Notes under the pieces: generated by a model | What the model was told of the DNA's origin: nothing | The model's input: the letters and a program-made list of their open reading frames with translations, nothing else | Database searches by the model: none | Part shown: positions 3,413 through 30,578 of the stretch, in pieces | How the letters are laid out: every line of letters starts with the position of its first letter | Numbering within the stretch: position 1 is the first letter of the stretch | Position numbers and translations under genes: made by a program | Origin: Anaerolineaceae bacterium | Lineage (GTDB): Bacteria; Chloroflexota; Anaerolineae; Anaerolineales; Villigracilaceae | Length of the DNA: 64,000 nucleotides | Reading direction: 5' to 3' | NCBI GenBank assembly: GCA_009772985.1 | Contig: WOUS01000008.1 | Span: 29,332 to 93,331, forward strand

Positions 3413-3690
3413 GGTTTTCCTTTTCTTGCTGTCCAGCCCAAACCGAAAACACAAAAACCCCGCCAGGGGTGGGAAGACAGGTCAATTGTAAGATTCTAAA
3501 CTGCCAGAGGCAGTGAAAGTCAATTCTGGTAGCGCGCGGTCAGTATAGCAGGGTGGAGCGGGAATGTCAACGCGGCGCCTGGGAATTCGGACAACCATTC
3601 TTCGGCAGCGGATTTCGCGGCTTCTCGCGGAGGAGGAAAAGAAAAACCCGCGTCATCCGCGCTAATCCGTTGCAGAAGTTTGTCGTCCTT

Positions 3691-3830
3691 TCTCTACCGT
3701 ACAAACCCTGTGCAGGACGCGGACGAGCGCGGAAAACGCGGACAAAACCGATTCTTTTCAAGGGTTTTCCTGAATAATCCGCGTCCATCCGCGTTTATCC
3801 GCGTCCCATTATCAAAATGTACGGTAGAGA
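3691..3830. repeat. Dispersed MITE-like palindromic element, copy 1
   Basis: 140 bp bounded by perfect 10-bp terminal inverted repeats TCTCTACCGT/ACGGTAGAGA. The interior has complementary runs of CGCGGA and TCCGCG, so the whole element can fold into a long imperfect hairpin. Related copies lie at 15014-15147 and 30411-30564. It fills most of the 428-nt gap between rnj and the GNAT gene; the rest (3413-3690) shows no other recognisable feature. Confidence 0.75.
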
Positions 3831-3840
3831 AGTCGTCCTC

Positions 3841-13811: not shown

Positions 13812-14273
13812 TTAACCTTGTTCCCACACCTGCCGCGTCAACTGGACGTGGCCGAGGTGCAGCGCGCTGTGCTCGAGAGCGTGCAGGATGCACCATCCAG
13901 TCGTGAAGGTTTTGTCGTTGCGCGGCGATTTGCGGACGGTATCCATATCCGCAAACGAGAATCGGGCCAGCGCCTGCCGGGCATAGTCATCGGCGGCGGA
14001 CAGATGCTGTTTCAACTCGTCCGCGGTCAGCCCGCGCGCCCGGAACTCCTGCTCACGGACGCGCTCCGGCGGCTCGCCCAGCGCCAGGCCGAGCCAGTAG
14101 CGCTCCGCCCCGGCCAGGTGGACGACCAGCACGTTGATGGAATTCGTCTCCGCGCCGGGCGTCCAGTCCAGCGCCTTTGCAGGCAGGCCGTCCACGGCTT
14201 TGACGAGGTCGGTGTGGATTTCGTGGAAGCGGTCGTAGAGATCATCGAAGAGACTTATTTTTCCTCCTCGCAC
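13812..14273 (-). CDS. DinB family protein (putative metal-dependent transferase fold)
   Basis: 153 aa four-helix-bundle protein. The metal-binding His pattern of the DinB/YfiT superfamily is visible: VVHLAGAERYW near residue 52 and HALEHSALHLGHVQLTRQ near the end. Members use mycothiol, bacillithiol or unknown thiols; no substrate can be named here. The best start is GTG at 14273, overlapping the preceding transporter gene by 19 nt, so the two are probably coupled. The exact start is uncertain because the strongest purine-rich site (GAGGAGG) lies just after it. Confidence 0.8.
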   Translation of the reverse strand: MRGGKISLFDDLYDRFHEIHTDLVKAVDGLPAKALDWTPGAETNSINVLVVHLAGAERYWLGLALGEPPERVREQEFRARGLTADELKQHLSAADDYARQALARFSFADMDTVRKSPRNDKTFTTGWCILHALEHSALHLGHVQLTRQVWEQG

Positions 14274-14893
14274 TCACAGTTCATACCTCGGGCCTTCTCG
14301 AACGACTCGCGCCCTTCCCTGACCGAGAAATAGATCAACCCCAGCGCGCCGAGGCTGTCCACGAAGCCGAAGCCGGTCAGTTGGTAGATCAGGCTGGCCG
14401 CCAGCAGGACGAGCGACATGTAGATGCATACTAACGTGCAGTTGGCGTCCGCCAGGATGGGGGCGGAATCCAGGGCGCGGCCGACCTTGCGTTTCCCGGC
14501 CACCAGCGCCCACATCATGGCAATCGAGATGGTCGAAATGACTAGGCCGGGCAGGGTTGTTTCCGGTTTCCTGCCGGTAATGAGACTATAGATTGCCGTG
14601 ACGCCCAGCCCGGCGGCCAGCAGGTAGAAACTCGTCCCGGTGACGCGCAGGGCGGTGCGCTCGAACTGCGAGCGCGGCGTATCGGGGTTCCGGCGGATGC
14701 GGTAGACCATCGCCACGATGCCGATGCCGGAGAGGACTTCGATGAACGAGTCCACGCCGAAGCCGAAGAGGGTCAGGGCTTCGTCCTGCACGCCGAAGAA
14801 GATGGAGACCAGTCCTTCGAGCAGGTTGTAGAAAATGGTGAAATAGCCCAGCAGGAGGGCGTAGGTGAACAGGCGTTTGGTTTGAGGGGTCAT
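14255..14893 (-). CDS. Cation-efflux-like transporter, transmembrane domain only
   Basis: 212 aa, about six membrane segments. The pattern LFGFGVDSFIEVLSGIGI in TM2 and APILADANCTLVCIYMSLV in TM5 match the membrane core of cation diffusion facilitators, where these Asp residues bind the metal. The usual cytoplasmic C-terminal domain is missing; instead the protein ends in CECEEEK, a possible metal-binding tail. The canonical HxxxD of zinc transporters is not present, so the substrate is open. ATG 14893 lies 6 nt after a TATAAT. Confidence 0.8.
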   Translation of the reverse strand: MTPQTKRLFTYALLLGYFTIFYNLLEGLVSIFFGVQDEALTLFGFGVDSFIEVLSGIGIVAMVYRIRRNPDTPRSQFERTALRVTGTSFYLLAAGLGVTAIYSLITGRKPETTLPGLVISTISIAMMWALVAGKRKVGRALDSAPILADANCTLVCIYMSLVLLAASLIYQLTGFGFVDSLGALGLIYFSVREGRESFEKARGMNCECEEEK

Positions 14894-14899
14894 GCCGGA

Positions 14900-14905
14900 A
14901 TTATA
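14900..14905 (-). promoter_or_regulatory. -10 box of a leaderless promoter
   Basis: TATAAT on the minus strand ends 6 nt before ATG 14893 of the cation transporter; no ribosome-binding site. Confidence 0.6.
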
Positions 14906-14938
14906 GCCGATAGCGTGTTGTATTTTTACCGCGAAGGG

Positions 14939-15204
14939 GCGACCCCCAAAGAACGGGGGCAGGCGACCGCGAAGGAATCATCGTGATCGCGAAGAAACCC
15001 TTCGCGGGTTTTGCTACCGGACAAAAGAGAAATGGGACGCGGATTGACGCGGAAAACGCGGATAAAACCGAGACAAAAATCCAAAAAAAGCCCTTTTCCG
15101 CGTACATCCGCGCTCGTCCGCGTCCAGCCAGGAGATTTGTCCGGTAGAGAATCGCGGGTATAGAATTCCTTCGCGGTCGCCTGCCCCCGTTCTTTGGGGG
15201 TCGC
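14939..15204. repeat. Nested palindrome with perfect 40-bp outer arms
   Basis: Positions 14939-14978 and 15165-15204 are exact reverse complements over 40 bp (core CCCCCAAAGAACGGGGGCAG). Between them sits the complete MITE-like element 15014-15147, also palindromic. The outer arm core recurs inside the coding region of the next gene at 15719-15750. The rest of the gap up to 15247 holds only repeat flanks. Confidence 0.9.
15014..15147. repeat. Dispersed MITE-like palindromic element, copy 2
   Basis: 134 bp with perfect 12-bp terminal inverted repeats CTACCGGACAAA/TTTGTCCGGTAG. The left 80 bp are nearly identical to the copy at 30411-30564. No transposase or coding content. Confidence 0.85.
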
Positions 15205-15247
15205 GGCCTTCGCTGTTCCTCTCGGGCTTTCCCGTATCCTTTTCGGG

Positions 15248-15253
15248 TAAAAT
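15248..15253 (+). promoter_or_regulatory. -10 box of a leaderless promoter
   Basis: TAAAAT ends 6 nt before ATG 15260; no ribosome-binding site. Confidence 0.55.
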
Positions 15254-15259
15254 CAACCC

Positions 15260-16135
15260 ATGCCTGAACTCATCTCCAGCGCCAGCAACCCGCTCGTCAA
15301 GCAGATCCGCGCCCTGCGCCAGAAAAAAGGACGCGAGCAGACCGGCCTGTTCCTCGTCGAGGGCATCCACCATGTCGGCGAGGCGGCCGAGGCCGGATGG
15401 GAGATCGAGACCCTCGTCCACGCCCCCGACCTGCTGACCAGCGATTTCGGCCTGCGCCTCGTGGCGGACCTGTCCCGCCGCGGGGTGCGCGCCGCCGCGC
15501 TGACCGGGGGGCTGTTCGCCTCCGTCGCTGAAAAAGACAACCCGCAGGGATTGCTGGCCCTCGTCCGCCAGCGAACGTGCCAGCTTGACAACCTGCAACC
15601 TGCAAACTTCAAGTTTGGCGCGGCGGTCGTCTCCCCGCAGGACCCCGGCAACGTGGGGACGATCCTGCGCACGCTGGACGCGGTCGGCGGGGACGCGCTG
15701 TTCCTCCTCGACCCCCTGACGGGGGCAGGCCCCCAGAGAACGGGGGCAGGCGGCGGCGTGGACCCGTACCATCCCTCGTCCGTGCGCGCCAGCATGGGGA
15801 CGATCTTCTGGAAGCCGGTGGTGGAGACTTCGTTCGATGAGTTTGTCAAGTGGGCGAAGAAGCATGGTTTCCGGCTGGTCGGCTCCTCGGCTCATGCAAC
15901 AATGGATTACTGCAACCTGCAACCCTTCGATGACGCTCAGGGCAAGCCTGTCAACCTTCCAACGGTTTTGTTGCTCGGCAGTGAACAAAAGGGACTGACA
16001 GCGGAGCAGATCGCGGCGTGCGATGTGACCGTGTCCCTGCCGATGCGCGGGCGCGCCAGTTCGCTCAACCTGGCGGTGGCGGCGGGCATCCTGTTGTACG
16101 CGCTGGCAGACGGGTTCAAAGAAGAGCTGAATTAG
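15260..16135 (+). CDS. TrmH/SpoU family RNA 2'-O-methyltransferase
   Basis: 291 aa. The N-terminal substrate-binding domain begins ISSASNPLVKQIRALRQKKGRE. The C-terminal SPOUT domain carries motif 1 VVSPQDPGNVGTILRTLDAVGG, motif 2 LLLGSEQKGLTAEQIAACD and motif 3 VSLPMRGRASSLNLAVAAGILLY. The target is probably 23S rRNA (RlmB/TsnR group), though the exact nucleotide cannot be read. Two or three stretches look like repeats read in frame: 15584-15605 (NLQPANFK), 15711-15750 (DPLTGAGPQRTGAG, same core as the palindrome upstream) and 15908-15960 (NLQPFDDAQGKPVNLP). All keep the frame open and avoid the SAM-binding motifs. Confidence 0.92.
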   Translation: MPELISSASNPLVKQIRALRQKKGREQTGLFLVEGIHHVGEAAEAGWEIETLVHAPDLLTSDFGLRLVADLSRRGVRAAALTGGLFASVAEKDNPQGLLALVRQRTCQLDNLQPANFKFGAAVVSPQDPGNVGTILRTLDAVGGDALFLLDPLTGAGPQRTGAGGGVDPYHPSSVRASMGTIFWKPVVETSFDEFVKWAKKHGFRLVGSSAHATMDYCNLQPFDDAQGKPVNLPTVLLLGSEQKGLTAEQIAACDVTVSLPMRGRASSLNLAVAAGILLYALADGFKEELN

Positions 16136-16150
16136 GAAGAGATAAAGGTC

Positions 16151-16250
16151 AAACCGCGAAGCCGCGAAGGTCGCGAAGAAATCATGGAGGTCGCGAAGAA
16201 AACCTTCGCGCTCATGGGAATCTTCGTGTTCTTCGCTGCTTCGCGGTTAA
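16151..16250. repeat. ACCGCGAAG-family hairpin
   Basis: AAACCGCGAAGCCGCGAAGG at the left pairs with CTTCGCTGCTTCGCGGTTAA at the right over 100 bp, with further CGCGAAG units inside. It follows the SpoU gene by 15 nt. Confidence 0.7.
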
Positions 16251-30223: not shown

Positions 30224-30410
30224 CTTACGTTTCTCCTTGTTCGAATGGGGGCAGCGGGCTTGTGAAAAACCGCCTGCCTGTGTCAGGTCTGGCGGCGAAA
30301 GCACACACACAAAGCCTCTGCAAGTGAGCCTATTTTATCACATCGCACTCTGCTTGCGTGAATCAATTTTCGCCATTTCCCCTCACGATGCCCGCCGGGC
30401 GGTGGGTTTG

Positions 30411-30564
30411 CTACCGGACAAAAGAGAAATGGGACGCGGATTGACGCGGAAAACGCGGATAAAACCGAGACAAAAATCCAAAAAAGCCTGATTCCGCGTA
30501 CATCCGCGCTCACCTGCGCCCGTTTTTTGGGTGTCCGCGTCCAACCAGGATGTTTGTCCGGTAG
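30411..30564. repeat. Dispersed MITE-like palindromic element, copy 3
   Basis: 154 bp, terminal inverted repeats CTACCGGACAAA/TTTGTCCGGTAG, nearly identical to copy 2 in the left half. It ends 14 nt before the -10 box of the aminotransferase gene, so it could affect that promoter. Confidence 0.85.
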
Positions 30565-30578
30565 AGAAGGCGGTGGGT

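Follow-up and report, generated by a model that had tools for sequence, protein, structure and literature searches.

In an Anaerolineaceae bacterium, the block that separates a cation-efflux-like gene from a divergent trmH-like gene consists of small non-coding elements nested in three layers within the divergent promoter region. Its outermost layer is a palindrome of CGCGAAG heptads, both arms of which carry a 21-bp hairpin beginning with CCTG, and a MITE lies beside the palindrome apex. Probably, the palindrome came first and the hairpin second, arm-to-arm copying followed, and the MITE was the last to arrive. The nested-insertion view, proposed earlier in a sequence-only reading, is supported. 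The features are listed in Table 1, with coordinates of the window, i.e. the whole analyzed stretch of 64,000 nt (contig WOUS01000008.1).

Table 1. Features of the composite insert and of its surroundings (positions in the window)
Feature	Position	Strand	Details
Cation-efflux-like gene	14255..14893	-	upstream of the block, divergent; PF01545 43.3 bits (cut-off 26.6)
Whole composite insert	14912..15242	.	about 331 bp; interrupts a conserved box located between the two divergent genes (cation-efflux-like, trmH-like)
Outer heptad palindrome (CGCGAAG units)	14928..15215	+	interrupted at 15010-15159 by the MITE and a duplication
Left 40-bp exact arm	14939..14978	+	pairs with 15165..15204
21-bp CCTG hairpin, left arm	14943..14963	-	
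Apex hairpin of the outer palindrome	14989..15005	+	GCGAAGAAACCCTTCGC
Left target duplication	15002..15009	+	TCGCGGGT, 8 bp
Inner MITE	15010..15151	+	142 bp; ends CTACCGGACAAA / TTTGTCCGGTAG
Right target duplication	15152..15159	+	TCGCGGGT, 8 bp
Right 40-bp exact arm	15165..15204	-	pairs with 14939..14978
21-bp CCTG hairpin, right arm	15180..15200	+	
SpoU/TrmH-type RNA methyltransferase (trmH-like) gene	15260..16135	+	downstream of the block; PF00588 108.3 bits (cut-off 29.7)
In-frame insertion in the trmH-like gene	15712..15750	-	39 bp; tandem 18-nt and 21-nt hairpin copies

The halves of the conserved box are found in the window at 14899-14911 (left) and from 15243 onwards (right), with 331 bp extra between them. 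In six of seven same-genus relatives (loci L074, L075, L077-L080) the uninterrupted box AATTATAGCCGATTCGGGTAAAATC, or a close variant of it, stands directly 5' of the start codon of the trmH-like gene. This comparison covered seven genomes of the genus, besides the window's own, with a close methyltransferase match (61-72% identical), G006, G007 and G009 being set aside due to distant matches (best identity 34-36%). Neither the box nor such repeats were seen in the 120 bp before the trmH-like gene at locus L090 (G005, 61%), and the box was not seen at locus L076, which comes from another genus. A scan of positions 14800-15350 yielded one promoter-like site at the right end of the MITE (15137-15166; shuffle mean 0.1) and, at the apex hairpin, one terminator-like site (shuffle mean 1.0). 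The window contains no match to known RNA families at gathering thresholds, and no tRNA or tmRNA was found in it.

A search of the genome with a 351-bp region gave 73 matches, and the apex pattern GCGAAG-n5-CTTCGC defines 24 palindromes (24 forward and 24 reverse matches, as the pattern is symmetrical; 3 + 3 matches in the reversed control). The MITE is absent from 23 of these, the window copy alone holding it, so that the outer element does occur elsewhere without the inner one, a check suggested along with the sequence-only reading. According to inspection by eye, the hairpin is present in one arm of 13 palindromes and in both arms of three (the window copy, L026 and L027), seven have none, and one (L039) retains a remnant; in L034, L040 and the left arm of L026 the hairpin is nested. 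The first event at the window locus would have been the entry of the heptad palindrome, and the second the insertion of the 21-bp hairpin into one arm, at its second heptad; 13 other palindromes likewise carry the hairpin in a single arm. The window contains one more CGCGAAG palindrome, at 16146-16250, downstream of the methyltransferase gene, with both arms hairpin-free.

The inner element has terminal inverted repeats at both ends and belongs to a group of dispersed copies without a transposase gene. Its position beside the outer apex, with an 8-bp duplication of its own, agrees with the proposal that one family had inserted into another. The interior of the window copy is a palindrome of the ATCCGCG type, with no hairpin in it. 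With one mismatch allowed, the end pattern is not selective (33 matches vs 42 in the reversed control), and its exact matches pair up around MITE copies. At other loci of the genome, seven of them with 99-82% identity over most of its length, the MITE is found without the arms, the very observation that had been named in advance as distinguishing two elements from one. Among 11 copies in this genome with both ends recognised, seven have exact duplications of 8-12 bp, one has a 6-bp duplication, and three have no exact one (one of the three, L003, matches at 9 of 10 positions); since the scan let the ends shift by a few bases, leaving some lengths ambiguous, the actual length of the duplication probably lies between 8 and 10 bp. 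Three copies in the relative G431 (L146, L152, L156) also show 8-bp duplications. The idea that arms and inner element move together as a single composite has one point in its favor, their nesting at this locus; the armless MITE copies, the MITE-free palindromes and the MITE's own duplication refute it in this genome, and we consider it barely conceivable.

The exact 15-bp MITE end occurs in 12 of 152 family genomes, the window's own included, and one genome matched only the reversed control. In the relative G035 (locus L155) two ends of the MITE type, 1169 bp apart, surround a gene for a DDE transposase of 382 amino acids, which scores 37.5 bits against PF01609 (cut-off 23) and 150.8 bits against NCBIfam transpos_IS4_2, just under the cut-off of 152; no target duplication was found at this full-length IS4-like element of 1.2 kb. 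A search of the window's genome (93% complete), run without a positive control, gave no match to a transposase of the L155 type. The inverted ends, the duplications of about 8 bp or longer, the non-coding interior and the full-length element in a relative liken the MITE to those of the IS4 family. It differs from them in that no parent was found in its own genome and that its interior, similar to a free-standing ATCCGCG palindrome, gives the impression of a captured sequence. The arrival of the MITE resembles ordinary in-trans transposition: an IS4-type transposase would have put the element beside the apex, duplicating 8 bp of target, after the hairpin was already in place.

Two further elements of the MITE group have been noticed in the window. 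The one at 3690-3831 has ends of the CTACCGTACA type, and the one at 30404-30568 carries a hairpin with the stem CGCCC/GGGTG. At locus L064 (G000:C22:162679-162842) MITE-like ends surround a CACAAAG-heptad repeat with a hairpin; these ends may have captured more than one kind of palindrome.

The third layer, additional to the two families of the sequence-only reading, is the hairpin unit CCTG-CCCCCG-n5-TGGGGG, typically of 21 nt, which consists of the 5'-CCTG, a 6-bp stem (counting a G-T pair) and a 5-nt loop, and folds as a hairpin. Its core pattern gives 34 matches in the genome and none for the reversed control, and a covariance model built from members of this genome finds 56 places at E <=0.05, these members included. 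CCTG is present in all 42 aligned members, but it was required when picking them, and therefore the variants CCAG, CCGG and CTTG, all of which were seen, are under-counted; some members deviate from CCTG or from the length of 21 nt. Covariation, which supports the hairpin weakly, was assessed in members chosen partly by pairing: in the first set 44 of 500 shuffles scored as high; in the second, with 99.5% of cells paired and both sides altered in two cells of one pair, such shuffles numbered 2 of 500 by four measures and 73 of 500 by the remaining one. Two shift-aligned 20-nt members were kept in the model alignment A2, and members of 20, 22 and 23 nt were left out of set A3.

The hairpin is found in several kinds of host: CGCGAAG palindromes, repeats of the CACAAAG and TTGCGAGG types, a CTCTCCC-type context (L214, and L112 and L179 in relatives), ATCCGCG repeats, MITE copies, and its own loop (L018, L034, L040, L218, L219, L220). 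The ATCCGCG repeats, with sites distinct by their flanks, provide ten filled and ten empty ones. The gain in size is exactly 21 nt in five of the ten filled sites, at TC(G/A)^TCC, and 22 nt in one; three gain 44 nt, that is 21 plus a nested 23-nt variant, and in one (L018, reverse) the hairpin is at a different position. The insert in heptad hosts mostly follows a G, where unfilled arms have T, and thus one base may be replaced on insertion.

All this makes the hairpin look like an extremely small mobile sequence, which would move as a unit. Alternatively, it could be a fixed part of the heptad palindrome that spread together with it; most hairpins of heptad palindromes do occupy one position. 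Nevertheless, the hairpin is missing from seven of the 24 palindromes and confined to one arm in 13, and neither the filled and empty ATCCGCG sites nor the copies in other repeats, in the hairpin's own loop and in reading frames fit this explanation, making it very unlikely.

The arms of the outer palindrome, claimed to be exact over 40 bp and to flank the inner element, are indeed complementary at 40 of 40 positions in the one assembly from which they are known, and the MITE lies in the 186 nt between them. This pair is the longest perfect inverted repeat of the window at a spacing of at most 400 bp, the next one being 14 nt long, and when the entire window was shuffled 30 times with dinucleotides preserved, the longest perfect arm reached 15 nt. 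Folded as single-stranded DNA, the segment 14925-15222 has an energy of -112.5 kcal/mol vs the shuffled mean of -53.95 (z -14.64). The hairpin makes up approximately half of each arm. We compared 23 hairpin-bearing 40-mers, each adjoining a TTCGC or TTAGC unit (nested and 20-nt hairpin copies were left out, and two gene copies, L213 and L072 reverse, were included). The window arms are the sole identical pair among 253; the other 252 pairs differ at no fewer than three of 40 positions, the overall mean being 8.1 mismatches. The suggestion that perfect arms mean recent origin or homogenisation is thereby supported as a local effect.

Identity of the arms suggests copying from one to the other by template switching. 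In the third step of the proposed history, intramolecular template switching or arm-to-arm conversion would have transferred the hairpin together with neighboring bases, leaving 40 bp exact. The competing possibility is that the same hairpin variant inserted twice, independently, into the same preferred site of arms that were already alike. Insertions into the heptad unit nearly always use one site, two other palindromes (L026 and L027) bear a hairpin in each arm, and two insertions of one young variant could yield similar arms. However, the identity in the window runs through flanking bases that vary between copies, and the 252 non-identical pairs show how far copies usually diverge, so we regard two insertions as rather unlikely. 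Arm-to-arm copying at the window locus is favored, though not proved, because the window pair alone is identical, while the arms of L027 mismatch each other at 13 of 40 positions (vs 0 of 40 in the window) and those of L026 are unlike each other, the hairpin being nested in one and plain in the other. Template-switch mutation at quasipalindromes is described as making the two arms of an imperfect inverted repeat identical (PMC7202029, PMC8604942); at the window locus the copying appears, as judged by comparison, to have included an entire 21-bp insert.

Regarding the enzyme that could move the hairpin, the Y1 (RAYT) transposases of REP-type sequences were considered. REPs tagged with GTAG or CGTC, which form REPtrons with RAYT genes, are short tagged palindromes with many copies, some of them in genes (PMC3733652, PMC8266576), and the hairpin with its tetranucleotide resembles them in all these features; moreover, a RAYT is encoded in the window's genome. 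Still, the hairpin bears CCTG rather than GTAG or CGTC, and no Y1 gene flanked by CCTG hairpins was seen: among 30 loci with Y1 transposases there was one CCTG-CCCCCG hairpin, which does not flank the gene but lies near the end of the examined stretch; at two loci GTAG hairpins are present instead. Numbers of Y1 matches and hairpins are also out of step, with six and none in G008 and two and 31 in G000. The genome's two Y1 matches show no link to the CCTG hairpin: the first is a protein with a response-regulator-like domain that falls under the cut-off of that family, and the second is the RAYT, adjoined by a GTAG hairpin. RAYTs of REPs cleave at CT or CA (PMC8266576). With its different tag, and with no enzyme linked to it among the 30 loci or the own-genome matches, the hairpin is unlikely to be a REP-type sequence moved by a RAYT, and the RAYT was rejected as the mover. 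Candidate routes for the hairpin are single-strand mobility, passage through RNA and errors of replication.

A RAYT-type transposase gene with adjoining hairpins of the GTAGTAACGACTT type was observed at L104 (approximately 1100-1930), forming a separate REP-like family, with a similar arrangement in L254. Locus L103 (1459-3024, reverse) encodes a protein of 521 amino acids whose N-terminus weakly resembles a response regulator and whose C-terminal domain is Y1-transposase-like. In many relatives Y1 matches fall in frames of the same size; the L103 protein is perhaps a domesticated one.

The 21-nt hairpin pattern was found in 12 of 400 genomes of the order, the reversed control matching once. 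The numbers of matches per genome are very uneven: 31 in G000, 22 in G003, seven in G401, four in G024, three each in G009 and G002, two in G016, and one in each of five genomes. Three of the seven genomes sampled from the genus, counting the window's own, lack the pattern, hairpin-free congeners being G005, G007 and G008. In a collection of species genomes, 18 contigs contain a somewhat narrower form of the pattern, a list from which records of the window's own genome may be missing; 17 of these contigs are titled Chloroflexi, Anaerolineales, Anaerolineae or Dehalococcoidia, and in the one from Streptomyces the match is part of a longer palindrome. Among the matches listed for openly licensed literature, titles and abstract openings held no report of the hairpin in Chloroflexota. 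Loci L044 (G000) and L114 (G009) share the same hairpin variant with very similar flanks, probably an insertion common to two species of the genus. In locus L134 (G002:C200:3000-4100), at approximately 480-575, three starts of the form CCTGCCCC(C)G are followed by four TTCTTTGGGGG-like ends, as if hairpin copies had entered each other's loops.

The hairpin is also present in genes. Recurrence of the arm core in the adjacent gene, noted in the sequence-only reading, was confirmed, but what recurs there is the 21-bp hairpin alone and not the outer element. The insertion in the trmH-like gene adds 13 residues that are absent from all seven aligned relatives. Likely in-frame hairpins are also present in an iron-sulfur-type protein, whose best solved relative has an 8-residue gap at this place, in a trigger-factor-like protein, within a C-terminal tail that extends past the region aligned with solved structures, and, in relatives, in polynucleotide phosphorylase and a macro domain protein, for which solved relatives place the insertions imprecisely. 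For a fifth in-gene candidate (L132) no solved relative was found. The methyltransferase gene has a second stretch, encoding the eight residues FDDAQGKP (window 15929-15955), that is absent from the seven aligned relatives.

Among known repeats, the closest kind would be the small dispersed repeats (SDR) of Nostoc, reportedly described by Elhai and colleagues in 2008. Their units are reported to be 21-27 nt long and to contain a hairpin; they lie within tandem heptamers and minitransposons and nest in their own copies. The CCTG hairpin falls in the same size class and similarly folds; it likewise has both filled and empty host sites (the ATCCGCG repeats) and is nested in itself (at six loci, besides the nested-looking run in G002). 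The likeness to the SDR is one of description; phylum and sequence are different, and the CG^T-like target and the in-frame gene copies are further differences. We tentatively suggest that the CCTG hairpin might be among the smallest mobile DNA units known, independent of the cyanobacterial SDR. Such a unit would enter CG^T-like sites without target duplication and with a net gain of 21 bp, therefore keeping reading frames; its own loop would contain a target, hence the nests, and palindromic hosts would pass copies of it between their arms through template switching.

The locus provides a readable record of layered insertion, with relatives free of the block, copies in genes, and palindromes in which neither arm, a single arm or each arm bears a hairpin. 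It raises two testable questions, namely, what moves hairpins as small as 21 bp, and whether palindromes serve as copying platforms that double small inserts. The analysis also suggests that some short in-frame protein insertions in this group are repeat insertions.
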